From a virus, in the IMG/VR virus record IMGVR_UViG_3300033388_005273, positions 1 to 43,616 of that record: 43,616 bases of DNA, one strand, 5' to 3'. Position 1 is the stretch's first letter. Each line of letters starts with the position of its first letter. Below the pieces are notes generated by a model, which was not told where the DNA came from, made no database searches, and was given only the letters and a program-made list of their open reading frames with translations. The position numbers and the translations under genes are program-made. This document shows, in pieces, positions 3,373 to 39,906 of the stretch.

Positions 3373-3628
3373 AGATACCCGATATATCTACCCTATCAGC
3401 TATGTAGTGACGTGTCTCGCCATCCGTAGGCATACTGTGGCTGAAACTTAGCTGTTTACCATCACCACATAAATATAACACTATATGTTCCTGAGCCCCA
3501 CCACGTGTTAAGGACTCCATATCTAAGGTGCTTCTAACCCAATAATACTCGCCTTTTTGTAATTCTTTGAGGGCTGACTCATAGTCTGCCTCTTGAACTA
3601 CCAAACCTCCAGGATATTTGGGTATCAT
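3362..3628 (-). CDS. Small KYP-family protein with C-terminal IY signature, 88 aa
   Basis: Paralogue of 5094-5363. Both start with a short leader and KYPxG, then show Y-x-x-A-x-x-E-L-x-K-x-x-Y-x-W, S-L, VLYL and KQL at matching places. It ends in RVDISGIYDC, a variant of the block's C-terminal signature. Function unknown. Confidence 0.65.
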   Translation of the reverse strand: MIPKYPGGLVVQEADYESALKELQKGEYYWVRSTLDMESLTRGGAQEHIVLYLCGDGKQLSFSHSMPTDGETRHYIADRVDISGIYDC

Positions 3629-3885
3629 TGCTGACGCTTAATCGCTTGTTCTAGCGTTTTCAGACCAAATATAATCAGTGGGTCATGACATGAATACTGA
3701 GCGTTTCTCACCTTACCCATAAGGACTCGTAATCTCACTTGTCTTATGCGATTTGAGTCTGTGGATGTGTTGTCTCTTACGTCATCAGAAAACTTATGGA
3801 CTTGATTAAGGTCAAATTCACACATTGCACTCTCGGCATGAGCCATAGTAGCCACTAAACTTAACATAATTAATACTTTTTTCAT
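3625..3885 (-). CDS. Exported small protein, 86 aa
   Basis: MKKVLIMLSLVATMAHA is a clear Sec signal peptide, with an AHA cleavage site before ESAMCEF. The mature ~69 residues are charged and mainly helical, with two cysteines (CEFDL and SCHDP) that could form a disulfide in the periplasm. It lacks the IY signature carried by most cytoplasmic-looking neighbours. Function unknown. Confidence 0.7.
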   Translation of the reverse strand: MKKVLIMLSLVATMAHAESAMCEFDLNQVHKFSDDVRDNTSTDSNRIRQVRLRVLMGKVRNAQYSCHDPLIIFGLKTLEQAIKRQQ

Positions 3886-4088
3886 TTAACATCCTTTAGG
3901 TAAACTTCTGCGACTACTTCAAGTCGTTCAATTTTGTAACTTATCATACTAGGGATTAGCACAGATGGACTGACGACGTTGTATAAACTCTCCATACGTT
4001 TGATGTAGCTTCGTACAGAAGATGGACGTTGAAGGAATTTTACAACCTTCGTACTCTTGTGGCGTTTGGTTACTGTAATTTTATACAT
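3882..4088 (-). CDS. Basic hypothetical protein, 68 aa
   Basis: A lysine- and arginine-rich small protein (MYKITVTKRHKSTKVVKFL) that overlaps both neighbours by four to eight bases. No motif is recognised. The charge suggests nucleic-acid contact, but nothing more can be said. Confidence 0.6.
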   Translation of the reverse strand: MYKITVTKRHKSTKVVKFLQRPSSVRSYIKRMESLYNVVSPSVLIPSMISYKIERLEVVAEVYLKDVK

Positions 4089-4350
4089 CAGTAAATTCTC
4101 CGTATAGTTTATCTAAGTCCATACCTTTGGGTGCATAATCAACCCAACCTGAACCCAACAAGATACCATTTTTCGACATGTACTCATGACCATAAGCCTT
4201 CCTATTAACCTCATCTCGGTAAAATATGAATGTTTCTCCATACTTACCTGCAATGTGGTCTGATGCTTGCATAGACTGAGCATGTATTGATTTAGTGCTG
4301 TAATATTCTATTAAGTCTTCCCTATTTGTAAATCGTAGTTTTTGTAGCAT
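4081..4350 (-). CDS. Small protein with near-C-terminal LY signature, 89 aa
   Basis: The ATG at 4350 is preceded by an AAGGA ribosome site (4363-4359) that lies inside a 10-base inverted-repeat arm, so translation may be gated by RNA structure. The C-terminus GMDLDKLYGEFTDV carries the block's signature with three extra residues. The body has no known motif. Confidence 0.65.
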   Translation of the reverse strand: MLQKLRFTNREDLIEYYSTKSIHAQSMQASDHIAGKYGETFIFYRDEVNRKAYGHEYMSKNGILLGSGWVDYAPKGMDLDKLYGEFTDV

Positions 4351-4355
4351 AATTG

Positions 4356-4447
4356 AGTCCTTAAGTAAACCTACGTTCCATAATTGGCAAGTGCCGAAAG
4401 CATGGATTAGGTAGTTAATAGGTTGGCTTAAGGACTAAAAGTCCTTA
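4356..4447 (-). promoter_or_regulatory. Competing-hairpin element 2, possible SD switch
   Basis: In RNA sense, segment A (4447-4440, end of the upstream ORF), segment B (4436-4427) and segment C (4365-4356) can pair in two ways. A:B is an 8-bp hairpin around the TAG stop with a three-base loop. B:C is a perfect 10-bp stem closing a 61-base loop. Segment C contains the AAGGA ribosome site of the next gene. The loop holds nested AACCTA/TAGGTT, CCAT/ATGG and GGCA/TGCC stems. Confidence 0.55.
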
Positions 4448-4668
4448 TAGATATCGGTGATGCATACCTCTTTTACTTCTTCAAAGAAGTGTTGAAAATA
4501 GCAAACGTGCTCTTTTGGGTATTGTGAAGCAAGAGGACTAGGCTCTACTGGATAGAATATTGTACCGTCCATCGTACGAACTACCAAAATCTCACCTACA
4601 TCACAATGGTAAGAACTTTTAGGAGGTTTCTCAATACATCTTACTTTCATACCTACTTTAAAACGCAT
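4435..4668 (-). CDS. SH3-like small protein with C-terminal IY signature, 77 aa
   Basis: Paralogue of 2919-3155: MRFKVGMKVRCIEKPPKSSY aligns residue for residue with its N-terminus, with the same CDVG continuation. It ends in VKEVCITDIYKDF. AAAGGA sits five bases before the ATG. Its stop codon is inside a hairpin that competes with the ribosome site of the next gene. Confidence 0.7.
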   Translation of the reverse strand: MRFKVGMKVRCIEKPPKSSYHCDVGEILVVRTMDGTIFYPVEPSPLASQYPKEHVCYFQHFFEEVKEVCITDIYKDF

Positions 4669-4689
4669 ATTTTTCCTTTGATTAGAACT

Positions 4690-4787
4690 CCATAGAAGGC
4701 AGGTGAGGCGGAACTTAGAAGTTCGTGAGTATCCTATGGATTGACTCCAAATGTGCCTTGTGTGCCTTCTATGGAAGCCTAGCTTCC
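4690..4787 (-). ncRNA. Intercistronic structured element 3
   Basis: A perfect 12-bp inverted repeat (4690-4701 with 4763-4774) closes a 61-base loop. The loop contains GAACTT/AAGTTC and a GAGT..ATCC/GGAT..ACTC hairpin. A second hairpin, GGAAGC/GCTTCC (4773-4778/4782-4787), follows the upstream TAA at once and shares two bases with the long stem. The design matches the elements at 1345 and 4356. Confidence 0.5.
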
Positions 4788-5006
4788 TTAAAGTGAATAA
4801 ATCTCATCTAAGCCGAATGGCTCAACATATTTCTTAAAGTTGGTTGGTACCCAACCATTAGCACGACCATTGGAGTCCTTTGTAACTGCAACCCATTCTT
4901 GTTCTGCTACATCTGCGCTTAAGAAGTAAACATTCCCCTTCACAAATCCACCACAACCTGAAGACTTAGTATCTACAACCTTAGCACCCTTCTTAAGAGT
5001 TAGCAT
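4788..5006 (-). CDS. SH3-like small protein with C-terminal IY signature, 72 aa
   Basis: The body begins MLTLKKGAKVVDTKSSG and is probably a third, more diverged member of the SH3-like set. The end, YVEPFGLDEIYSL, shares EP and the LxxIY signature with 2632 and 3142. AAGGA lies seven bases before the ATG. It is the first gene after the second 65-bp repeat. Confidence 0.65.
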   Translation of the reverse strand: MLTLKKGAKVVDTKSSGCGGFVKGNVYFLSADVAEQEWVAVTKDSNGRANGWVPTNFKKYVEPFGLDEIYSL

Positions 5007-5043
5007 ATCATAATCCTTATGTGGGAAGAATGCTTTGTCCTTC

Positions 5044-5108
5044 CTCAGCCTAGAGTCTTATTATACCCAAACTTTCTTAATGTGAGCTGAAATTTAGAAA
5101 GAATTGTA
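5044..5108 (-). repeat. 65-bp repeat, copy 2 (gene end plus promoter)
   Basis: Ungapped match to 2869-2933. It again spans the last codons (Y-N-S-F-stop) of the upstream gene, the promoter-like region and a leader ending CTCTAGGCTGAG. Confidence 0.85.
5060..5086 (-). promoter_or_regulatory. Promoter-like site, GGGTATAAT
   Basis: TATAAT (5065-5060, minus strand) is preceded by TTTGGG, with CTCACA at 5086-5081, 15 bases upstream. It is the same arrangement as at 2885-2911 and would drive the genes from 5006 leftwards. Confidence 0.6.
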
Positions 5109-5363
5109 TAATTTGTTCATATTTACACTGGGTTTAGGGGTAAATACTCGCAAACCTTTGTGAAATGTTGAACCCCAAGTCAGTTGCTTAGAACCTACAT
5201 CCTTAAGGTATAAGACCATAGCTGTCTTGTTTTTACTTGAAAGGCTACGTACTGTAACTTCGTCAGCTCGCCAATGGTAGCCACACTTATTTAACTCAGC
5301 GACAGCCTCGGCATAATGCCTACTATTTACCAAAATCCCATCAGGGTACTTTTGTATATTCAC
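5094..5363 (-). CDS. Small KYP-family protein with C-terminal LY signature, 89 aa
   Basis: The frame is open from 5387, but GTG at 5363 (MNIQKYPDGILV) is preferred. It follows AGAGGA at six bases and aligns with the start of its paralogue at 3628 (MIPKYPGGLVV). It ends in PSVNMNKLYNSF. The YNSF end and the DNA after it are shared with 2919-3155, although the protein bodies are unrelated. Confidence 0.7.
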   Translation of the reverse strand: MNIQKYPDGILVNSRHYAEAVAELNKCGYHWRADEVTVRSLSSKNKTAMVLYLKDVGSKQLTWGSTFHKGLRVFTPKPSVNMNKLYNSF

Positions 5364-5418
5364 ACCATGTCCTCTCAATAACCACAACTATAATTAATGC
5401 CATTGCCAAAATGTCCAT
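5341..5418 (-). CDS. Possible 25-aa membrane peptide
   Basis: The ATG at 5418 follows the upstream TAA by one base (TAACATG), and the frame runs to a TGA at 5341. The peptide has a short hydrophobic run (MDILAMALIIVVVIERTW). It overlaps the N-terminus of the next gene. Ribosome-site support is weak, so this is tentative. Confidence 0.35.
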   Translation of the reverse strand: MDILAMALIIVVVIERTWCEYTKVP

Positions 5419-5419
5419 G

Positions 5420-5638
5420 TTACAAAAGGTCTTTTACATTCAGAAATTCCATACATTCTTCTTTAGAGTTTACTACTGCCATCCAAGTATGGAATTCATT
5501 TGTATCAAAATCATAATTCATCAGGGCATCACCGTGAGTTACCACAAAAATACCTTCGGACGTTACAGATACAACCTCCTTAACTTTGAGGTTACGAGAG
5601 ATATGACCTAAGGCTTTAGATAATTTTAGTAAATCCAT
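5420..5638 (-). CDS. Hypothetical protein, 72 aa
   Basis: The start is taken at ATG 5638 (MDLLKLSKALGHISRNL), coupled by TAATG to the preceding mini-gene; a GTG at 5647 is an alternative. The body (VKEVVSVTSEGIFVVTHGD) looks beta-rich. It ends in FLNVKDLL, which recalls the block's C-terminal signature but lacks the Tyr. Confidence 0.6.
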   Translation of the reverse strand: MDLLKLSKALGHISRNLKVKEVVSVTSEGIFVVTHGDALMNYDFDTNEFHTWMAVVNSKEECMEFLNVKDLL

Positions 5639-5709
5639 TACATCCACCCTTTACATTCAAGATATGCTACTATTTGGTCACACTTTTTGTCAAACTTACG
5701 CCACATCAT
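5638..5709 (-). CDS. Possible 23-aa mini-gene
   Basis: ATG at 5709 follows an AGAGGTG ribosome site and lies inside the end of the upstream gene. The frame ends in TAATG coupled to the next gene. The peptide (begins MMWRKFDKKCDQIV) is basic with two Cys. It may be a leader peptide that only couples translation. Confidence 0.4.
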   Translation of the reverse strand: MMWRKFDKKCDQIVAYLECKGWM

Positions 5710-5803
5710 AATCACCTCTATCAAATTTTACATTAACTCTCCATAAAATAGAGAAACCCGTAAATAAACCTATACCCATCATTACCATTAAATATTCAGC
5801 CAT
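5696..5803 (-). CDS. Small membrane peptide, 35 aa
   Basis: ATG at 5803 is coupled by TAATG to the gene ending there, with AAGGA in that gene's last codons. Residues 3-20 (EYLMVMMGIGLFTGFSIL) are a membrane span, followed by a short polar tail. The coupling on both sides supports a real gene. Confidence 0.5.
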   Translation of the reverse strand: MAEYLMVMMGIGLFTGFSILWRVNVKFDRGDYDVA

Positions 5804-6000
5804 TATTTTGTGTCCTTCTTCTTTACAATTCGTACGGCATATTTACCCTTCGTGCCCATTCCAACTTTTGGACAACTCTTAATGAAAGCAGTTCTAGCCT
5901 TCTTTTTAAGTTGTGGAACTATCGTGTCGGGAAAATTCCCAATTCTTTCGGTAGGCTCAGAGAACCCGTGAGCTGATACTGTTGTTTTAAAACCTTGCAT
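5803..6000 (-). CDS. Small basic protein, 65 aa
   Basis: A strong AGGAGGT ribosome site precedes the ATG at 6000. The protein is basic, with an SAHGFSE motif and a Lys-rich end (KGKYAVRIVKKKDTK). It resembles the 60-aa product at 107-289. It is the first gene of the block after the terminator at 6014-6046. Function unknown. Confidence 0.65.
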   Translation of the reverse strand: MQGFKTTVSAHGFSEPTERIGNFPDTIVPQLKKKARTAFIKSCPKVGMGTKGKYAVRIVKKKDTK

Positions 6001-6013
6001 AATTTACCTCCTA

Positions 6014-6046
6014 CAATAAATTTATAAAGGAACCCCGAAGGGTTCT
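6014..6046 (-). terminator. Rho-independent terminator with UUCG loop
   Basis: On the minus strand a GAACCC-TTCG-GGGTTC hairpin (6045-6030) is followed by CTTTATAAATTTATT. It sits directly after the stop of the 276-aa gene. Confidence 0.75.
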
Positions 6047-6055
6047 AAAATAAAG

Positions 6056-6886
6056 TTATGCAGTTGCTTCAGCTTCTTCAGCCTCAGCTTCTTCATCTTT
6101 AGTATTTACAGCCGTTTTATGGGCTTCAAGACGACCTAATAAGTCACCTTCAACGTCAAACTTACCACTTGCTAAGAATTTATCCATAGTTTCAAGGAAT
6201 TTCTCATATCCCTTAACTTCGTCCTCTTCGGGCTTATAAGTAAACTCTAAGAATTCGATTTCATCACTTAAAGTGTTATTATACATCTTTTGGTGAGAGA
6301 ACTCAGCTGGAATTAAGGTATCCACCTTAAGAGCCTTCTTAGCAATACCAGAAATACGAGTTACACGGTTCTTAATATTCTTAAGAGCAGTATCTTTGGT
6401 AACTTTTGTTACTTTAATTGTACCGTCACTCTCTTTAATACGCTTATCAATAGCTACACCGTCCACTTTTTGGATTTTAGAAATCATACGAACCAAAGTT
6501 TCGACATTGTGGAATGTTACCATATCCAAAGGCAGAACAATTTTAAGCTCAAAGAATGTACGAGCCGTTTTATTAACCATTTTAAGACGAGAAATCGTTG
6601 ATTTTAAGGCAAAAGCTTCGGGAATGTTATCATTAATAATCTTATTGATAGCGTCTTCAGCACTTTGGGCATTTTCAACACCAAAATCTTTATAAATCTC
6701 TTTGGCAGTTTGAATGAATACCATTGAAGCGATAGAGAAATTGTGTACCAATTCCGAGGCAGTTACGGCAAAATCCGTGATAATTACAGCATGAGCTTCG
6801 GAAATCTTCTTACTATTATCGGCAGTTACGGCAATTTCTTGCAACTCTTTGTTTTCTTGTGCTTGTACTTGTTGTTCTTTAGACAT
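6056..6886 (-). CDS. Acidic-tailed hypothetical protein, 276 aa
   Basis: The largest gene of the left arm, on its own transcription unit. It has a structured leader upstream (6924-7074) and a UUCG terminator downstream. The protein is mostly helical, with a basic middle (KVTKVTKDTALKNIKNRVTR) and a strongly acidic end (KDEEAEAEEAEATA). An acidic tail on a basic body is seen in SSB-type and other DNA-binding proteins, but there is no OB-fold signature I can point to. Regular codon use and dedicated control signals suggest strong expression. Function unknown. Confidence 0.75.
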   Translation of the reverse strand: MSKEQQVQAQENKELQEIAVTADNSKKISEAHAVIITDFAVTASELVHNFSIASMVFIQTAKEIYKDFGVENAQSAEDAINKIINDNIPEAFALKSTISRLKMVNKTARTFFELKIVLPLDMVTFHNVETLVRMISKIQKVDGVAIDKRIKESDGTIKVTKVTKDTALKNIKNRVTRISGIAKKALKVDTLIPAEFSHQKMYNNTLSDEIEFLEFTYKPEEDEVKGYEKFLETMDKFLASGKFDVEGDLLGRLEAHKTAVNTKDEEAEAEEAEATA

Positions 6887-13476: not shown

Positions 13477-14151
13477 ATGTTTGAAAAGACTAAAAAGTTC
13501 TTAGGGATTTCTACTAAGAATCCTACCATTAAACAAGATGTGAGTGCGTATATTGATGGAGGCTCTAAGGAGTATTCAGAATCGTATAACTCATTCGTGC
13601 AATCAGTTGAGTCCTTGGATGCTGTTATTCGTACTATAGCTAACATTGCATCTATGGCTACTATTGAGGTAGTTAAGGAGAATACTAAAGGTGAGCGTAA
13701 GCCTCTTAAGATTAAGAATGTAGATTTAGTCTATGATATTAATGAGCTTGACTCTCAGGCTGACTGGATTCGTAAAGTATTCGCAAGTATATTCACACAG
13801 GGTGCTGCAGTAATTATTGCAGAGAAAGGGCCTAGTAAGTTTATTAACTTCTATCCTTATGACCCAGCTAAGTTCGAGATTGACGCCAGTGAGAGTGCTG
13901 TTATAGATAAGTTTACATACTCTAGTGAAGATGGTGGTGAAATAGAATTCGCACCTAAAGATGTTATCTATGTTAATAATACAATCGACCTTACTAACTT
14001 GGTATACGCTATGTCAAGACTTAAACCTCTTAACGATATGCTATTACTACAATCAGGTATGATTACTAATCAGAAGGCTTTCTATGAATCTGGTTCTAAA
14101 GACTCTGTGATTCTTAGTCCTAAAGAACCTATATCAATATCAATACTATAA
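13477..14151 (+). CDS. Portal protein, N-terminal part (interrupted), 224 aa
   Basis: HK97-type portal: early V-x-S-V-E-x-L-D-A-V-I-R-x-I-A region, then INFYPYDPAKFEI, DVIYVNN and the stem helices up to ESGSKDSVILSPKEPIS. In this family the last segment is followed by ~60 residues before the PAYLLGD motif. Here the frame ends at TAA 14151, and PAYLLGD appears 5 codons into the next frame. The family's intervening segment is absent and the reading frame changes by -1/+2. The junction lies in an ATATCA-rich tract (14131-14150). Confidence 0.85.
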   Translation: MFEKTKKFLGISTKNPTIKQDVSAYIDGGSKEYSESYNSFVQSVESLDAVIRTIANIASMATIEVVKENTKGERKPLKIKNVDLVYDINELDSQADWIRKVFASIFTQGAAVIIAEKGPSKFINFYPYDPAKFEIDASESAVIDKFTYSSEDGGEIEFAPKDVIYVNNTIDLTNLVYAMSRLKPLNDMLLLQSGMITNQKAFYESGSKDSVILSPKEPISISIL

Positions 14152-14153
14152 TT

Positions 14154-14678
14154 ATGAAATCATTCGGTCTACCAGCATACCTACTTGGTGACTATGATGG
14201 TTACGTATCAGATGCTGCTGTTGTTAAAGCTAGTCAGATATTCTTCCAGATTCAGATTAGACCTGTATTTAAATCACTGGCTCATCAGATGACTAAGTAC
14301 TTCCGTACAACCCTTAAGTTAAAAGACGCTATTGTAGATTTTAACTTTGAGGATATTGATATCCTACACGATTCACTAGAAACAAAAATGGCTATCACAG
14401 AGAAAGCTTATAAGCTAGGACTATTGTCTATTAATGAAGCTAGAGAGCAGCTTGAACTTGAACCACTTGATACTGAAGAAGCTAACTTACACTTCTTACC
14501 AGCCTACCTACTATCCTCTACCCCTGTAGCTATTGAAAACTACGGAGAGGTTAAGGATACATTATTTGCAGCTGAGACTTCTGAGGAAGGAACTGATGCC
14601 GAAGTGGCAGGAACTAACGAAGACGGTACAGGTTCTGGAGCAACTGGTGGTGCAGATAACGAACCAGCAGATGCTTAA
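14154..14678 (+). CDS. Portal protein, C-terminal part (interrupted), 174 aa
   Basis: Begins MKSFGLPAYLLGDYDG, the characteristic portal motif after the stem, then clip and wing helices (KASQIFFQIQIRPVFKSLAHQ). The C-terminal 30 residues are acidic and Gly/Thr-rich, as in many portals. It is in a different frame from 13477-14151. There is no ribosome site before its ATG, so it is unlikely to be an independent gene. Together the two parts make ~398 aa, with roughly 60 residues of the core missing. Confidence 0.8.
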   Translation: MKSFGLPAYLLGDYDGYVSDAAVVKASQIFFQIQIRPVFKSLAHQMTKYFRTTLKLKDAIVDFNFEDIDILHDSLETKMAITEKAYKLGLLSINEAREQLELEPLDTEEANLHFLPAYLLSSTPVAIENYGEVKDTLFAAETSEEGTDAEVAGTNEDGTGSGATGGADNEPADA

Positions 14679-32300: not shown

Positions 32301-33419
32301 ATGGCTGATTGGAATCTACCAGGATTAGGAAGTACATATACGGACTTCCAAGCAGAATTAAAAGAAAGAGATGATGACTCTGCTAAAATGTTTGATGGTG
32401 TTGGGACGAATCTCCCAGTAGATACTGTTAGATGGTTTACTGTTAACGACAGATTCGAAAAATGGAATGGAGCGTTATGGGGAGAGCTAAGTACTCTATA
32501 CCAAATCAACGTCGCATCTTTACAAGGTCGTACTGTAAATGACGCAGGTACTGGTGTGAATGTACTGTGGACTGCAGATAAAATTACTAGTACTCTATCT
32601 ACTAATATTGCACCTTCGGCTACTAAGTTAGAAACAGCAAGAAGCTTTACTGTTAGTGGTGATGTATCTGCAACTCCTGTATCTTTTGATGGTACATCAG
32701 ACGTAGATATTTTAGTTACTGTTTCTGACGATTCACATAACCATACTATAGCTAATGTAGATGGGCTACAAACAGAACTAAGTGGTAAACTTGATGATGA
32801 TGCTAAGGCTGTGGATAGTGCGCTATTAAATAATGCTGTTGAATCAGAGACTGCTATAGCTAACACTATTGTTAAACGTGATTCGTCTTCGGATATTTCA
32901 GCAAGAACCATTAAGACTAATATAGCTACTGGTACTGCAGTTCCTGCAGATACTGTAGGTATAGCGTTCAGGATTAATGCATCCACTGACTCATATACTA
33001 GATATATAACACAGGCAAATATGAAAACTTGGATTAGTGGTACTGGCCTTGATGCTGGAACACTAGATACTTTAGATAGTGCTGACTTTGTACAAAATGC
33101 CACTACTTCTAATTTAACTGCTGGGTATACTACTACCGTAGAAGTTCTTGGAAGTAATACAATCGCAGCTAATATGGCTACTTCACACCTTAAGTCAAGA
33201 GTTCTTACTGGAACATTAACTATTAACTTACCTGTAGGTGGAGAAGGCGTCTGTGAAATATTCATAGATGCTGGTGGAGCAAATAGAGCTATCGTATTAG
33301 GAACAGGGGTTAGTGTTGTTGGAGAGCTTCCAGATATCTTAAATACTAAGTCGTACATAGCACATATTACTAGATGGACTGGGGCAGTTGCAACTGTATC
33401 AATCGGGGAGTTAGTATAA
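32301..33419 (+). CDS. Tail fibre protein, 372 aa
   Basis: Begins one base after the gpJ stop. N-terminal ~90 residues are an attachment region (DWNLPGLGSTYTDFQAELKE and WFTVNDRFEKWNGALWG). Then fibre repeats with GDVSATPVSFDGTSDVDI and the classic NTIVKRDSSSDISARTI motif of side-fibre shafts. The C-terminus is a small beta domain. TAATG-coupled to the Gly-rich adhesin. Confidence 0.8.
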   Translation: MADWNLPGLGSTYTDFQAELKERDDDSAKMFDGVGTNLPVDTVRWFTVNDRFEKWNGALWGELSTLYQINVASLQGRTVNDAGTGVNVLWTADKITSTLSTNIAPSATKLETARSFTVSGDVSATPVSFDGTSDVDILVTVSDDSHNHTIANVDGLQTELSGKLDDDAKAVDSALLNNAVESETAIANTIVKRDSSSDISARTIKTNIATGTAVPADTVGIAFRINASTDSYTRYITQANMKTWISGTGLDAGTLDTLDSADFVQNATTSNLTAGYTTTVEVLGSNTIAANMATSHLKSRVLTGTLTINLPVGGEGVCEIFIDAGGANRAIVLGTGVSVVGELPDILNTKSYIAHITRWTGAVATVSIGELV

Positions 33420-34207
33420 TGAGTCATATTATTAATCCAGCTCCTCTTAGTCTATTAGTACCTTCAGACCCTACTATAATAGAGTCTTGGCCTAATTTTG
33501 TTGTTCTGACATCTAGCCAGACTTGGGTTGTTCCTGCAGGAGTAAAAGAGATAGTTGTTGCCGTCATGGGCGGTGGCGGTGGTGGTGGAGCTGGTACTGA
33601 TATAGATACAGGCCCCTATTCTGGAATATATTTTGCAGGTGCAGGAGGCGGAGGTGCTGGTTATAATGTTGACCAGTTTGATGTAACTCCTGGTCAAAAT
33701 ATAAGTATGGTTATTGGTGGTGGTGGAGCTGGAGGCATTCGTTGTACTAATGAAGCTGCAGTAATAGCTGGAGACTTTGTAGGTGCTACTGGTGGGACTT
33801 CATCAGTTGTAGGGTATCTATCGGCTGGTGGTGGTATTGGTGGGTCATGGGGGCCGGAGATTGGCCTAGGAGTTTTTGGTGGTGGGAACGGAGGGAGAGG
33901 GTGGAATAGTAGTGCTCATCCTGATATTCCTGGTTCTTCAGGTCTAGGGGCAAATGATAATGTGCTAGATGAGAATCGTGACAGGGCTGCTATAACTAAT
34001 TACTACGGGACTTTTGGTGATGGTGGGGGTGGTGGAGCCGCTTACCTAGGAAATGGTGGGTACGGTGGACTCAACGGTACCAATGAACCTGCTCGGCGTG
34101 GTGATCCCGGTTCAGGCCCTGGTGCAGGTGGGGGCGGTGGTGCCCAGTACTTATCAAATGTAGGCGGAGCTGGTATAAGCGGCGTAATTGAAATAAGATG
34201 GATGTAA
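33419..34207 (+). CDS. Glycine-rich tail adhesin, 262 aa
   Basis: Start at ATG 33419, overlapping the upstream TAA; the frame is open further upstream but that is gene overlap. After VWTWVVPAGVKEIVVAV-like strands (SQTWVVPAGVKEIVVAVMG) the protein is built of Gly runs (GGGGGGGAG, AGGGGAG, DGGGGGAA, AGGGGGAQYLS). Such Gly-rich cores occur in phage receptor-binding adhesins that pack as polyglycine sandwiches. GC content rises locally because of Gly codons. It probably forms the fibre tip and decides host range. Confidence 0.75.
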   Translation: MSHIINPAPLSLLVPSDPTIIESWPNFVVLTSSQTWVVPAGVKEIVVAVMGGGGGGGAGTDIDTGPYSGIYFAGAGGGGAGYNVDQFDVTPGQNISMVIGGGGAGGIRCTNEAAVIAGDFVGATGGTSSVVGYLSAGGGIGGSWGPEIGLGVFGGGNGGRGWNSSAHPDIPGSSGLGANDNVLDENRDRAAITNYYGTFGDGGGGGAAYLGNGGYGGLNGTNEPARRGDPGSGPGAGGGGGAQYLSNVGGAGISGVIEIRWM

Positions 34208-34734: not shown

Positions 34735-35562
34735 ATGATAGTAGTATTATTAGGGAAGGCTGGTGCAGGTAAAACAACTGTAGCCAAAGCCATGGAAAAG
34801 TATGTGAAGGACTCATTTGTAATAGATGGGGATGAACTTAGAGCTGAGACAGCGAATATGGATATCGCATTCAAAGGGCGTGAAGCTAATATGCACCTAG
34901 GGTTTAGTCGTGCACGACGTTTAAGTGACCTTGGGTTTACTGTGTTCGTTTCTATGCAAGCCCCTATACGTGAGATTAGAGAGCAGTACCTTACAAAGTA
35001 TGATAAACAAATTGTGGTTCATAACCTAGGTGACAATCCTAAAGATGCGAAGGGGTATAACGATAACTTCCATCCAGATTATACAGGAGTAGACTTCGAT
35101 ATTCGTTTAGACTTATTCGATGTTGTAGACTTCTATAAACGAGTGTTCCCTAAAGTATTAGTCCCTGCACGCTTTCAAGGTTTCCATAAAGGACATAAAG
35201 TTGTTCTTGAAGAAGCTAAGCGTATTAGCCCTAACGTAACTGTAGGTCTTAGAGTTGACGATGGTGATGTCGTTGGTCTTGCTGAGAATATTGCCCTACT
35301 TGAGAGCAAGGGATATAACACTATCATCACTCCTAATATAGATGATGACTGGACTCAATTTGCTAACGGATACGATGTATATGTGCAAGGTAATCCTATG
35401 GTTATCGAGAAGTTTACTGATAGTGACTGTGAGCATTATCATGTACCTCGCTATGGTGATGTGTCAGGAACTAATATTCGTCAAGCAATAGAGCTTGGAG
35501 AAGACACATCGTCTCAGGTAGATGAAGATGTATTGCAAGTTCTTAGAAGTGCAATATGTTAA
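34735..35562 (+). CDS. APS kinase / HxGH nucleotidyltransferase fusion, 275 aa
   Basis: Residues 1-130 are APS-kinase-like: Walker A GKAGAGKTT (7-15), DGDELR (31-36, equal to DGDNVR), then FKGREANMHLGFSRARRLSD, a position equal to ISPxRxxR (APIREIREQ) and KDAKGYNDNFHPDYTGVD. Residues 140-275 are an HxGH nucleotidyltransferase domain: RFQGFHKGH (HKGH 151-154) and VSGTNIRQAIELG (244-256). ATP sulfurylases also use an HxxH and an ISGT-x-x-R near the end, so the pair could be a compact PAPS synthase (sulfate to APS to PAPS). The HxGH part looks equally like an NMN/CMP-type adenylyltransferase. First gene of the cassette. Confidence 0.82.
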   Translation: MIVVLLGKAGAGKTTVAKAMEKYVKDSFVIDGDELRAETANMDIAFKGREANMHLGFSRARRLSDLGFTVFVSMQAPIREIREQYLTKYDKQIVVHNLGDNPKDAKGYNDNFHPDYTGVDFDIRLDLFDVVDFYKRVFPKVLVPARFQGFHKGHKVVLEEAKRISPNVTVGLRVDDGDVVGLAENIALLESKGYNTIITPNIDDDWTQFANGYDVYVQGNPMVIEKFTDSDCEHYHVPRYGDVSGTNIRQAIELGEDTSSQVDEDVLQVLRSAIC

Positions 35563-35756
35563 TAGTTAAAACAATACTGTACCGAGTAATTCGGTTGGTA
35601 CTACTATTGGCTGTGGCTTACATCTTCTTAGGAGATATAGGAACAGCATTAAGTATATCTTTCGTAGATACAATAGTTGCTACAATATACTATTATATGT
35701 TCGAGAGATTTTGGAGTAAGTACGCCTTAAGGTTTAAGTACAGAAAGCTCAAGTAA
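35556..35756 (+). CDS. DUF2061-like membrane protein, 66 aa
   Basis: A basic N-terminus, two hydrophobic stretches (RLVLLLAVAYIFLGDIGTAL and SFVDTIVATIYYYMF) and the ERFWSKY end reproduce the DUF2061 pattern (G-D-x-x-x-A-L-S-I ... Y-Y-x-x-E-R-x-W). Proteins of this family are often found next to sulfate-activation genes, which fits this neighbour. Its ATG overlaps the end of the kinase gene. Likely a small inner-membrane protein, function unknown. Confidence 0.75.
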   Translation: MLIVKTILYRVIRLVLLLAVAYIFLGDIGTALSISFVDTIVATIYYYMFERFWSKYALRFKYRKLK

Positions 35757-35772
35757 TAAGAAAAGGATTCAA

Positions 35773-36828
35773 GTGTATTTAGAGATAACAAATAAGTGTA
35801 ATTTTACGTGTAGTTTTTGTATAGCAAGTGCTGTACATAGTAGTAAGGGTAAGTATATGACGTTAGCGGATGTAGACCATGCGCTTAGCTACGCGTCCAA
35901 AGATGAATATATCTTTGTTGGTGGTGGAGAACCCACCTTACATAGAGATGTATTTGAGATTATAGACCTTATATATACTAGAGGGTTTAAGAAGATTCAT
36001 ATAACTACTAATGGTAGTGATGAAGAAGCTATACGTAAACTTATAAAATTAACAGATACAATAGGTCTTATAGTAGTTCTTTCATTAGACAAGTACCATG
36101 ACCCTATAGACGACGAGGTAATAGCATTGTTTGCTAAACCAAGGAGACAATTTACATCTTATAGAGTCGGTATTAGACATACACCTGACACACTTATAGT
36201 TAAAGGTGGTAGGTCTAAAGAAGGCTTCGACGGTTGTCCTCATAAAACCCATGGAGTTCATGTGAATCCTGATGGAACATGGCATATGTGTGATGAATTT
36301 AAAAAGGATAGGGTTAAGGTAGGAGAGGATATTAAAGAGAGTCATATTTGTATTAAACCAAACTACCCGTATCCTCATATATGGTACGCTCCGCCACAAG
36401 ATGTTGTATACCCTTTTAGGCTTGGTGCTTTGGGTCATTACCAAGAGCTTGATGATTTAGATTTACAAGAGCCATATTTACTAGTTGGTTCTGGAGCACT
36501 CACTGGATATGGAATGTACCCATATAATAATGATATAGATATAAAAGTATCTCATGCTGATTTTGCTCGCCTAAAAGAAGTAAATGAAGTAAGCTATGAA
36601 AAGACATGGCCTGCTGATAGACAAGGTAGAGGAGTTATTACAATAGGTAATATACATATTTTAGAAGATTCGTATTTTGGGGCTACTGCTGGGCACCTTG
36701 AAGAAGAGTTGGAAGACTGTGTATTAGCTGTAGGAGAGTTAGGATACGTACAAAAGCAGGAAAAACTACTGCAAAATATACGAGGGTACTCACATATTAA
36801 AGAACATTACAAGGAGTATTTATGGTAG
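35773..36828 (+). CDS. Radical SAM / nucleotidyltransferase-like fusion, 351 aa
   Basis: GTG start at 35773 after AAAAGGA. Residues 1-~200 are a radical SAM domain: C9-x3-C13-x2-C16 (CNFTCSFC) for the 4Fe-4S cluster, GGGEPTL (SAM-binding GGE) and HITTNG. A CPHKTHGVHVNPDGTWHMC stretch is like a shortened SPASM region. Residues ~235-351 begin LLVGSGALTGYGMYPYNNDI, where GSG (239-241) and DID (254-256) match minimal nucleotidyltransferases. Such a fusion is unusual. The substrate is unknown; in this context a modified nucleotide, sugar or peptide for the sulfation cassette is possible. Confidence 0.78.
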   Translation: MYLEITNKCNFTCSFCIASAVHSSKGKYMTLADVDHALSYASKDEYIFVGGGEPTLHRDVFEIIDLIYTRGFKKIHITTNGSDEEAIRKLIKLTDTIGLIVVLSLDKYHDPIDDEVIALFAKPRRQFTSYRVGIRHTPDTLIVKGGRSKEGFDGCPHKTHGVHVNPDGTWHMCDEFKKDRVKVGEDIKESHICIKPNYPYPHIWYAPPQDVVYPFRLGALGHYQELDDLDLQEPYLLVGSGALTGYGMYPYNNDIDIKVSHADFARLKEVNEVSYEKTWPADRQGRGVITIGNIHILEDSYFGATAGHLEEELEDCVLAVGELGYVQKQEKLLQNIRGYSHIKEHYKEYLW

Positions 36829-37604
36829 TAATTAAATACAATGCGATGGCGTCTTATACGAAGATACTGGCTAGGGTTTTTAAACAAGTCTCTACTCGTC
36901 ATTACTCAGATGTAAATGCTAATCGACGTGGTGGTGGTGGAAATAAAAGAGCTGAGAGTGCTGAAACGTATACTGCCCATAAGCTATCAGAGATTAAAGA
37001 TATACCTTCATACCACTCTGCGGATGAGCTATTCTACATTGCTCCGTTTCTATCTGTTTCTGATGAATTCACTGACTCTCCTATGGAGACGATTCATGGA
37101 TATATGAAGGGAATTAAGTATACTGTAATATGTCCTATAGTTCCTTATGAGGAAAGACTGCACGCAATCATACATAGAGGGTCTCTAGGTAACTATCCTC
37201 CAATTAAATATGCAGAGGATGCAATGGTTAATGGGATTAAACATTATATATCTCAAGACCCTCTTAGGAGTAAGAAAGTTGAGAAATGCCAAACTGTTGA
37301 AGAGACTATTATGATGCCTGAGTTTGAAGACTTAGTAGCTAGACATAATAAGGGAGAACTTAATTTGGTAATTCTAACTAAAGATACTATCTTAAATGAT
37401 ACAGGAGCAATCCTAAATCACCTAGGTATTTCTCATGATATGGACTTTAGTTACCTCCTTAGTAAAATTCCTAGGCAGGGTGAAGAGAATGCCCATAGAA
37501 CTAAAGTGTACGCACAAACTATCTCAAAGTATAAAGATATTCTAGATAAGCGGTATGAAGAAATTTATAAGCTTATAGAAGATAATAAGATTCACGTATG
37601 TTAA
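36822..37604 (+). CDS. Unknown protein of the sulfation cassette, 260 aa
   Basis: AAGGAG is five bases before the ATG, which overlaps the previous stop. The N-terminus is basic with RRGGGGNKR. The C-terminal third (LNLVILTKDTILNDTGAILN-HLGIS, then YKDILDKRYEEIYKLI) recalls the end of sulfotransferases (E-D-L-x-x-x-P-x-x-x-L-x-x-I-L-x-F-L-G), but no PAPS phosphate-binding loop is seen at the N-terminus. It could be a degenerate sulfotransferase or an unrelated helical protein. It is the only gene in the cassette without a clear family. Confidence 0.65.
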   Translation: MVVIKYNAMASYTKILARVFKQVSTRHYSDVNANRRGGGGNKRAESAETYTAHKLSEIKDIPSYHSADELFYIAPFLSVSDEFTDSPMETIHGYMKGIKYTVICPIVPYEERLHAIIHRGSLGNYPPIKYAEDAMVNGIKHYISQDPLRSKKVEKCQTVEETIMMPEFEDLVARHNKGELNLVILTKDTILNDTGAILNHLGISHDMDFSYLLSKIPRQGEENAHRTKVYAQTISKYKDILDKRYEEIYKLIEDNKIHVC

Positions 37605-38284
37605 TAGTAGATAACATCGTATTCGTACACTTACATAAGTGTGCTGGAACTTCATTTGGTAATGCAGTACAGAGTCTTAGAGGGGATGATATACAATTTG
37701 TAAGTACTCATGCGCCTGTTACTAGTATCCCTGCTGCGTTTCGCGCATTAAGGAAAGTAACTTTAGTTCGTAATCCATTTGAATGGTATGAGTCATGGTT
37801 CAATTGGTCGGTCAAGAGAGCACAGTTTCTGAGTAATAGACAAAGTAACCCATTCAATATGCTAATGCATAGCGCAGATGGGATGGTAAATATCCATACG
37901 TTTATTGATAGAGCTACTGACTTGCCTCGGTTTTTTAGAGAGAACCCAAAGCAGTTAAAAGAATTTAAGGCTAGTTTAAGAGACCATAAAGTTGCTCAAT
38001 GGTTTAAGGCTATCCTTGGTGATGTCACTAAGCTTGATGCTAATACAATAGCTCCTACTTTGTACCAACTATTGGTAAGTGGTATGGGTGTTGAGGAGTC
38101 TGAGATATACCGTATGGAAGACCAGCTGATTGATGTTATGAATATTGCTGGGATTGGAGAGCGTCGTCTGAATAGAGATAACGAAACATTCCGAATACAG
38201 AAAAGAAACGAAGAAGATTCAGCAAAGATACTTAAAGCAGACTTAAAGCTGTTTGAAATGTTTGGGTACGTTGATAGTATTTGA
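37598..38284 (+). CDS. Sulfotransferase 1, 228 aa
   Basis: 5'-phosphosulfate loop HKCAGTSF (13-20) after the first strand, and 3'-phosphate motif KVTLVRNPFEWYESWFNW (53-70), as in the Sulfotransfer_2 type families. GERRLNRDNETF near the end fits the late conserved Asn/Arg region. The family moves sulfate from PAPS to sugars or proteins. PAPS could come from the kinase encoded four genes upstream. The ATG overlaps the previous stop; the TGA lies inside the next gene. No signal peptide, so it acts in the cytoplasm. Confidence 0.85.
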   Translation: MLIVDNIVFVHLHKCAGTSFGNAVQSLRGDDIQFVSTHAPVTSIPAAFRALRKVTLVRNPFEWYESWFNWSVKRAQFLSNRQSNPFNMLMHSADGMVNIHTFIDRATDLPRFFRENPKQLKEFKASLRDHKVAQWFKAILGDVTKLDANTIAPTLYQLLVSGMGVEESEIYRMEDQLIDVMNIAGIGERRLNRDNETFRIQKRNEEDSAKILKADLKLFEMFGYVDSI

Positions 38285-38948
38285 TAATATAGTGTTTCTT
38301 CATCTTAGAAAATGTGGAGGGTCTTCAATTATAAATAATATTCGTAATGAGAAGAAGATACTGTTTGGAAAAAACCATGGAATACTAGAAGAACTTCCTA
38401 AAGAGTATAGAGGATTTGATATTGTAGCTCAGGTTAGAAATCCATTAACTTGGTATACGTCATGGTATTCGTTTAACAGAGGGCTATTTGAATACGGAAG
38501 TAGAGTGCCTCCGTTCATGCGACTACTCCTATGGGACTATACTATTAATGACTTTGCTTCCATAGACTTATTTATTAGTAGGGCTGCGAACTTACAAAGA
38601 TTCTTCTCTTCTGAGATACTCCGATTATCGGAACTGAGGATGGAATTTGCGGGACTTGAAAAGCCTAGTTGGGTAAGTGCAATTGAAAGTAGCGTTCCGT
38701 ACTGGAAACCAGAAGAGTTTAATGGTTCACTGTACCAGTACTTCGTTGACAGGATGGGGGTTCTTACCACTACAACCTTTCGTGTGGAAGACCAGAAGGA
38801 AGAACTTAAGGAAGTTTTAGGTATTGGAAATATTCCTTACTTAAACAGAACTAAAAAAGTCTGGTCTCCATCTGAAGAGTCACTTAAGTTAGTGATAGAT
38901 GAGGATGAGAGACTATTTAAATACTTTGGATACAGGAGAGAACTATGA
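38271..38948 (+). CDS. Sulfotransferase 2, 225 aa
   Basis: A tandem paralogue of the previous gene: DNIVFLHLRKCGGSSI aligns with DNIVFVHLHKCAGTSF, and QVRNPLTWYTSWYSF with LVRNPFEWYESWFNW. The end (GNIPYLNRTKKVW) also matches. The start is set at TTG 38271 because this aligns the N-termini; TTG 38253 is an alternative. It overlaps gene 1 by 14 bases and is in another frame. The divergence suggests that it sulfates a different target or position. Confidence 0.82.
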   Translation: MIVFDNIVFLHLRKCGGSSIINNIRNEKKILFGKNHGILEELPKEYRGFDIVAQVRNPLTWYTSWYSFNRGLFEYGSRVPPFMRLLLWDYTINDFASIDLFISRAANLQRFFSSEILRLSELRMEFAGLEKPSWVSAIESSVPYWKPEEFNGSLYQYFVDRMGVLTTTTFRVEDQKEELKEVLGIGNIPYLNRTKKVWSPSEESLKLVIDEDERLFKYFGYRREL

Positions 38949-39427
38949 GTAATTGGAGTAAGAACTCTTGGAAGAGTTACAGAGCTTTAGACGTCGATGG
39001 AATGACTGGGCATGCTGGTAAAGGTAATGATGTACAGAATAGATGTGATGTTATCACTCAACTCTTAAAGGATACTGGAATTAAGAATCTAGTTGACTAT
39101 GGGGTTAATGAATACTTATACGTGAAGTTACCTAATGATACTAATATCACTTCTATCGAAATAGATAGTACTTCAAAGAATACCTTGGGTACTTATGAAT
39201 TAGTACATGGAGACTATCGAGAGTTTGTTCCTAAAAATCTTATGAATGATACAGTGTATACTTATCACATATTCAAAGATACTACTGGGGAACAAACTAA
39301 GTTATTTGAGGAGATTCTACTTAAGATGCATGGAGTTATTAACTCATTTATAATTGTATGGATTAGGGATATGGATTTTACTCAGTTCCCTATAATCTAT
39401 AATTTAGAAACAGGAGATAAGAGATGA
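38945..39427 (+). CDS. Methyltransferase-like small protein, 160 aa
   Basis: A Rossmann-like run (KNLVDYGVNEYLYVKLPNDT, TSIEIDS, YELVHGDYREF) resembles class I methyltransferases: a first strand with a D-x-G, an acidic end of strand 2, and a D in the GDY strand. It is short and has lost the full glycine-rich loop, so it may be inactive. ATGA overlaps connect it to both neighbours. Confidence 0.45.
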   Translation: MSNWSKNSWKSYRALDVDGMTGHAGKGNDVQNRCDVITQLLKDTGIKNLVDYGVNEYLYVKLPNDTNITSIEIDSTSKNTLGTYELVHGDYREFVPKNLMNDTVYTYHIFKDTTGEQTKLFEEILLKMHGVINSFIIVWIRDMDFTQFPIIYNLETGDKR

Positions 39428-39642
39428 AGAAGAAGAAAGATTATTGTACGTGGTTTCCAGAGAACTGGTTCGGAACTTATATAGGTGATTGTTGTAAGAT
39501 TCATGATGAGGATTGTTCTACTAGAAAGTTCTTTGTGTGTCTTAGAGACAAGATAGGACATAGTGCTGCTTCATTAGTTACTACTGGTGGCGCACTTGGT
39601 TGTTGGGCTAAGTACTTTAATAAGATGTGGAACAGAATCTAG
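39424..39642 (+). CDS. Phospholipase A2-like small protein, 72 aa
   Basis: DCCKIHDEDC (C23-C24-x-x-H27-D28-x-x-C31) is the PLA2 catalytic signature, with the His-Asp pair. FPENWFGTYIG before it stands where the calcium-binding loop would be. A later C-L-R-D and GALGCWAKYF complete a short helical protein. Small phage proteins of this PLA2-like type are known and may act on membranes in lysis or entry. It ends the cassette and has no signal peptide. Confidence 0.7.
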   Translation: MKKKKDYCTWFPENWFGTYIGDCCKIHDEDCSTRKFFVCLRDKIGHSAASLVTTGGALGCWAKYFNKMWNRI

Positions 39643-39682
39643 TACAGATAAGTTAGACATATGTTGTAATTAGCGTGATACT

Positions 39683-39745
39683 ATGAACAAGCAAGTAATA
39701 AAAATACTTAAGATTCATCTAAGGTATAGAAAAGTGCTTGTTCAT
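39683..39745. ncRNA. Inverted repeat with inner hairpin in intergenic gap
   Basis: ATGAACAAGCA (39683-39693) is the exact inverse of 39735-39745 and closes a 41-base loop. The loop has a 5-bp stem with a 7-base loop (AAGTA/TACTT). It lies in the 264-base gap between the cassette and the next fibre genes. It could be a structured RNA on either strand. Confidence 0.4.
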
Positions 39746-39790
39746 TTCACTCAGCGGGAAAGAAATATAAGAAAGATAATAGTTAATTAA
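39683..39790 (+). CDS. Possible basic mini-protein, 35 aa
   Basis: ATG at 39683 (MNKQVIKILKIHLRYRKVLV) runs to TAA at 39788-39790. There is no clear ribosome site, and the start and middle coincide with an 11-bp inverted repeat, so the sequence may be an RNA or DNA element instead. Confidence 0.2.
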   Translation: MNKQVIKILKIHLRYRKVLVHFTQRERNIRKIIVN

Positions 39791-39830
39791 AAGTAAAATT
39801 ATTAATTAAACTCATAGTATTATTATACCC
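39779..39830 (-). promoter_or_regulatory. Minus-strand GGGTATAAT promoter-like site and AT-rich hairpin
   Basis: TATAAT (39827-39822, minus) preceded by TTTGGG matches the two left-block promoters, but the -35 is poor. TTAATTAA palindromes nearby (39783-39790, 39802-39809) can pair. If active, it would transcribe leftwards over the inverted repeat at 39683-39745. Confidence 0.35.
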
Positions 39831-39906
39831 AAAGTTAGCTTAGAACTTACTTAAATTTTAAAGGAATTTTAGAATTCTTTTCAAGTTTAATTTTAAAGGA
39901 TAGAAA

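Follow-up and report, generated by a model that had tools for sequence, protein, structure and literature searches.

Surface-modifying phage morons, the genes of serotype or lysogenic conversion, lie close to tail or fibre genes, and those known glucosylate or acetylate. The locus described here would instead sulfate, with an enzyme of its own for making the sulfate donor 3'-phosphoadenosine 5'-phosphosulfate (PAPS). It consists of eight tightly packed open reading frames (ORFs), designated A to H, all on the plus strand at positions 34735-39642 of IMG/VR virus record IMGVR_UViG_3300033388_005273, a siphophage-like record of 43,616 bases that was analysed over its whole length and is referred to below as the window.

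The bifunctional PAPS synthetases PAPSS1 and PAPSS2, which supply PAPS to sulfotransferases, share with protein A the order of an N-terminal adenosine 5'-phosphosulfate (APS) kinase or kinase-like domain followed by a domain of the HxGH superfamily (PMC11697783). They differ from A in size (about 620 residues versus 275), in that the nucleotidyltransferase of A resembles NMNAT and TagD rather than belonging to the ATP sulfurylase family, and in that A lacks the canonical APS kinase lid. Lists of viral auxiliary genes include the APS kinase gene cysC under sulfate assimilation, an annotation that has not been validated; these genes resemble A-H in being phage-encoded APS kinases but are described with no mention of a sulfotransferase (PMC12713726, PMC8066274). 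An APS kinase is also annotated in Ralstonia phage phiRSL1. We found no description of a phage cassette combining PAPS synthesis with a sulfotransferase in the open literature, a body that leaves most subscription journals outside its coverage.

An initial annotation of this DNA held that the phage makes its own PAPS and sulfates something. Genes for the kinase, a DUF2061 membrane protein and a sulfotransferase recur in unrelated phages, and in the phage of contig L017 a canonical APS kinase replaces A; for these reasons a phage-encoded module of PAPS synthesis plus sulfotransferase is well supported. We judge it likely that A-H as a whole is a phage sulfation operon, acting late, with a glycan of the host surface or of the virion and its fibres as the most likely acceptor.

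Kinase replacement and co-occurrence

The best evidence that the job of A is APS phosphorylation comes from L017, an unrelated phage in which homologues of C, D, E and G stand in the same order (53, 47, 46 and 57% identity, respectively) and a stand-alone APS kinase (8.6e-25) follows G, in place of A. One and the same C-D-E-G block is therefore accompanied by two APS-kinase-type proteins in two different positions. The block follows shortly after the gene for a Gly-rich fibre protein in both phages.

A, or a fragment of it, is encoded in ten other IMG/VR contigs, all from uncultured viruses; nine are 59-74% identical to A, and the tenth is L031. Eight A-family loci have flanking sequence enough to judge: the window, L002, L003, L005, L006, L007, L010 and L031. 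A sulfotransferase of the E/F type lies near A in seven of the eight (as two ORFs in L005 and as a fragment only in L010), and a DUF2061 gene is likewise present in seven, with the caveat that part of the scans behind these counts were seeded from members of the same locus set. Left out were L004, which ends about 0.8 kb past A, and L008 and L009, in which A is incomplete; these contigs show neither a sulfotransferase nor a DUF2061 gene. The co-occurrence of these families across phages, put forward by the initial annotation as a check on its proposal, is thus observed, and because the arrangement recurs elsewhere we do not attribute that of A-H to chance. The background is low: tblastn searches with A, E and B against 50,697 phage records returned no relative at that sensitivity.

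Several relatives of A are broken. In L008 and L009 residues 1-159 are retained and unrelated sequence follows, and L010 breaks after about residue 107, which suggests that the module often decays or gets remodelled. L031 encodes another P-loop protein (586-2949), in which an intein-like insert seemingly splits the Walker A motif (...ILAGGAGC-FDGDTVINT..., ...NNINVHN-SGKGF...).

The kinase-nucleotidyltransferase fusion

Residues 1-95 of A (34735..35019) form an APS-kinase-like P-loop domain that matches PF01583 at 2e-8, with 34.8 bits against a Pfam cut-off of 21.1, and APS kinase is the top Pfam family for A by a lead of 14.7 bits. Residues 138-271 (35146..35547) form an HxGH nucleotidyltransferase domain like those of NMNAT, TagD and PPAT, matching TIGR00125 at 29.6 bits (cut-off 27.7). 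When a profile of seven relatives is compared with PDB it finds APS kinases at 1e-6, the archaeal NMNAT MJ0541 at 2e-5 and TagD at 8e-5; the top Foldseek matches to an AlphaFold model of A (predicted local distance difference test, pLDDT, 85.5) are all APS kinases, with PPAT structures matching the second domain. The Walker A sequence GKAGAGKT and the motif DGDELR (31-36) are kept in A and the seven relatives, across which the HKGH of the C-terminal half is invariant. Also invariant are R49 and N52, which an alignment with phage and archaeal APS kinases equates with the Arg and Asn of DRxxN, the residues that contact APS. The APS kinase fusion named in the initial annotation thus stands, as an APS-kinase-like domain joined to a nucleotidyltransferase-like one.

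ATP sulfurylase also belongs to the HxGH superfamily. Membership of A in the ATP sulfurylase family is nevertheless rejected, since its motif, ARFQGFHKGH, has the NMNAT/PPAT form and QxRNPxHxxH is missing, though the fused domain may serve a similar function by convergence. No ATP sulfurylase profile appeared among the Pfam, NCBIfam or PDB-profile matches of A. Scanning genomes with A as the query uncovered no relative in cellular organisms, and a structural search of BFVD returned phage APS kinases and polynucleotide kinases, none a convincing full-length match.

Scanning with the L017 kinase as seed uncovered further phage APS kinases, among them APS kinase-HxGH fusions in L026, L027 and L028 (plus the duplicate L025). 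Immediately upstream of the L027 fusion, which sits amid nucleotide-sugar and glycosyltransferase genes, is a DUF2061-like gene (4e-8 by hidden Markov model; 21.3 bits in Pfam, just under the cut-off), and the kinases of L023 and L026 have sulfotransferase-like neighbours by motifs and sub-threshold matches to PF13469. Upstream of the phage APS kinase in L022, three radical SAM-like ORFs were seen by eye in succession (3421-6465).

Three haloarchaeal plasmids (L035, L036 and L039) carry a canonical APS kinase-HxGH fusion beside a sulfotransferase; in L035 the kinase scores 3.5e-45 and the CTP_transf_like domain 1.5e-8. This plasmid cysC fusion shares with A its domain order and its type of partner gene, the sulfotransferase, and the alignment of A to the phage and haloarchaeal fusions covers the kinase and extends into the HxGH half. 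The haloarchaeal kinase differs in being canonical and full length, and its partner genes include YqcI/YcgG instead of radical SAM, DUF2061 and D. A related fusion in Stenotrophomonas phage Bhz60 (L037, 6559-7735) adjoins a NADAR gene and lies near a MazG-like gene; it could act in NAD or nucleotide metabolism rather than in sulfation.

The sulfotransferases

The two sulfotransferases of the initial annotation are borne out. E (37598..38284) is assigned to the PAPS type by family motifs, by the Pfam match of its orthologue and by a family profile compared with PDB; F (38253..38948) is its paralogue, 32% identical and with every motif retained, and judging from the alignment and the DNA it most likely starts at a TTG at 38271. 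HxxKxxGxS (11-19), H38 and RxPxxWYxS (58-66, with R58 and S66) are fully conserved across E, F and five relatives; in sulfotransferases they correspond to the 5'-phosphosulfate loop, the catalytic His and the site for the 3'-phosphate, respectively. By Pfam sulfotransferase model alone, E reaches 14.5 bits, below the cut-off, and F has no match; the Sulfotransfer_1 cut-off of 22 is passed by the E orthologue in L017 (46% identity; 23.3) and by a family member in L007 (23.6). Nearly all matches of a seven-sequence E/F profile to PDB are sulfotransferases (best 0.0015) or retinol dehydratase, an enzyme with the sulfotransferase fold. E and F are accordingly classed by sequence as PAPS-type sulfotransferases, predicted to use PAPS and to transfer sulfate.

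Membrane and accessory proteins

B (35556..35756) is a small DUF2061 membrane protein, as first annotated (PF09834, 3.1e-14; 53.6 bits against a cut-off of 23.1), and a DUF2061 gene is adjacent to or near a relative of A in six further contigs. C (35773..36828) was called a radical SAM/nucleotidyltransferase fusion. Its radical SAM half holds up (PF04055, 3e-16, 60.4 bits against 29.5; CxxxCxxC present as CNFTCSFC), and C has a colinear homologue in L017; the nucleotidyltransferase half does not hold up, the C-terminal GS-x13-DID being nucleotidyltransferase-like by motif only and finding no support in Pfam, NCBIfam or PDB searches. The second half of C has cysteines at C155, C173 and C193, with a SPASM match of only 0.082. 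A genome scan with C returned only a generic radical SAM protein in Amycolatopsis, and a likeness to viperin in a defence-system library probably reflects just the generic radical SAM core.

D (36822..37604), listed as an unknown protein, indeed has no library match and no assigned fold; in both known cases it is accompanied by C, E and G. A structure model built from the two D sequences was unusable (pLDDT 33) and was discarded, and the idea that D is a degenerate sulfotransferase was dropped after profile comparison with E/F gave no match. G (38945..39427) is conserved in L017 and has no family or PDB match. It had been labelled methyltransferase-like by eye, a label that Pfam, NCBIfam and PDB searches do not support, with no match to an S-adenosylmethionine-dependent methyltransferase profile up to an E-value of 10. 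Genome scans with D alone, the D pair and the G pair found nothing or only the L017 contig. H (39424..39642) is a 72-residue Cys-rich protein containing CCKIHDEDC. The reading of H as like phospholipase A2 (PLA2) comes from the CCxxHDxxC motif only and finds no support in Pfam, NCBIfam or PDB searches; the weak match of H to phrog_6098 (0.011) is to a family in which a genuine PLA2-domain protein of L010 likewise finds a match. That protein (L010, 7164-7502) is a clear prokaryotic phospholipase A2 (PF09056, 2e-7) about 3 kb from the broken copy of A and recalls H, to which it has no BLASTP similarity.

Gene packing and flanking sequence

A and B overlap by 7 nt and a 16-nt gap separates B from C; C/D and D/E overlap by 7 nt each, F/G and G/H by 4 nt each, and the E/F overlap is longer than these. 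The coordinates, strand and spacing of the eight genes had all been given correctly by the initial annotation, which also rightly placed the run between two fibre groups: upstream lie a J-type tail tip, a fibre and a Gly-rich fibre protein (32301-34207; PF21722 in the latter), as well as an ORF with no assigned function, and downstream a phrog_1084 protein followed by a long fibre-like ORF of 1134+ residues. The window also encodes a terminase and a major head protein. A portal-like gene seems to be broken into two ORFs whose frames differ, 13477-14151 and 14154-14678, possibly by a frameshift or sequencing error.

A weak scan found no terminator-like site on the plus strand between 33868 and the end of the operon; promoter and terminator scans alike performed no better than on shuffled sequence. 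The 264-nt gap after the operon (39643-39906) holds an inverted repeat, TGAACAAGC ... GCTTGTTCA, with no Rfam match, and Rfam returned no match in the window.

Proposed mechanism and acceptor

A would phosphorylate APS at its 3' position to give PAPS, as its family and context suggest, and E and F, on their family and motifs, would bind PAPS and pass the sulfate to an acceptor. B, which is regularly associated with A, may assist PAPS synthesis as a small membrane partner, and the conserved accessory block of C, D and G probably prepares or co-modifies the acceptor. The APS itself may come from host ATP sulfurylase or from the fused HxGH adenylyltransferase domain of A.

Genes for fibres or other fibrous virion proteins adjoin six loci (the window, L003, L005, L010, L017 and L031), and glycan-synthesis genes lie near four (L002, L007, L010 and L027). 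Because the genes found beside sister modules encode glycosyltransferases, nucleotide-sugar enzymes or fibres, our best guess for the sulfated target is a glycan of the virion or host surface; the gene neighbours favour a glycan-associated role, a fibre-associated role or both, without deciding between targets. Expression is likely late, because the operon continues the same-strand run of tail and fibre genes and no terminator-like site directly precedes it. Late timing favours modification of progeny virions or of the surface of the dying cell over early superinfection exclusion.

A number of observations weigh against this reading. A scores 33.4 bits against the 138.7 cut-off of the NCBIfam APS kinase model TIGR00455, and both the canonical lid (KGxYxxAxxGxIxGFTGxD) and the Phe of LGFS, present in the haloarchaeal homologues, are absent or replaced. 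Lacking these features, A is termed APS-kinase-like and not certified as CysC, and without the canonical lid its substrate has to be taken from context; short lids are shared by other phage APS kinases (L017 and L022-L024). L006 has A and a DUF2061 gene with no detectable sulfotransferase, the phage APS kinases of L022 and L028 have no sulfotransferase neighbours, and Stenotrophomonas phages bear a similar kinase-nucleotidyltransferase fusion with no sulfotransferase annotated nearby, so that the fusion alone is no proof of sulfation. A terminator-like site does occur at 33851-33867, within the Gly-rich fibre gene. Finally, an ATP-sulfurylase motif was found in none of the loci. APS must then derive from the host or from the second domain of A, and the part of the original claim in which PAPS is wholly phage-made is left without an ATP-sulfurylase-type gene.

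Alternative explanations

A stronger form of the sulfation proposal would make A a miniature PAPS synthetase that forms PAPS from ATP and sulfate, its NMNAT/TagD-like HxGH domain taking the role of ATP sulfurylase, with archaeal cousins acting alike and phages thereby sulfating a surface or virion glycan through new C-D-G accessory chemistry; we regard this as possible but rather doubtful. The sulfated product might instead be a natural product, with the radical SAM enzyme making the peptide or small molecule that receives the sulfate. The conservation of C, D and G along with E would fit, as would the extra cysteines of C, which recall SPASM/twitch proteins; yet no precursor-peptide candidate, exporter or peptidase was recognised in the operon, and sister loci without C-D-G have glycan genes instead, and we think this reading unlikely.

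Other readings dispense with sulfate. The nucleotidyltransferase of A might activate another acid, such as phosphoramidate, with 3'-phosphorylation by the kinase-like domain and transfer by the E/F-like proteins. The divergence of the APS-kinase-like domain and its fused nucleotidyltransferase suit this scheme, which would parallel synthesis of O-methyl phosphoramidate (MeOPN) on the Campylobacter jejuni capsule (cj1415-cj1418), where the CDP-amidate kinase Cj1415 is APS-kinase-like and Cj1416 is a nucleotidyltransferase. The genes cj1415-cj1418 are needed for MeOPN, and the transferases are cj1421/cj1422 (PMC3907429). Since L017 pairs the same C-D-E-G block with a plain APS kinase and no nucleotidyltransferase, no glutamine kinase or amidotransferase was recognised within the operon, and the haloarchaeal fusions contain a full canonical APS kinase, we hold a non-sulfate donor to be quite improbable. 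A might also serve nucleotide salvage, as a nicotinamide riboside kinase joined to an NMN adenylyltransferase that restores NAD+, and stand beside the sulfotransferases by chance. An archaeal NMN adenylyltransferase is indeed the closest profile match of its C-terminal domain, and the NADAR neighbour of the Bhz60 fusion points the same way. With a sulfotransferase in seven of eight loci, a canonical APS kinase in place of A in L017 and the lead of APS kinase among the Pfam matches of A, salvage is very unlikely.

Significance

The host-surface changes known from phages include glucosylation and acetylation; if A-H is indeed a sulfation operon, sulfate would be a chemically distinct mark that carries negative charge, one that could alter adsorption, superinfection or the properties of virions. 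Some viral cysC genes, at least, would then serve donor synthesis for sulfation, not sulfate assimilation. As a candidate compact PAPS synthetase, the kinase-nucleotidyltransferase fusion common to phages and haloarchaea lends itself to direct testing.

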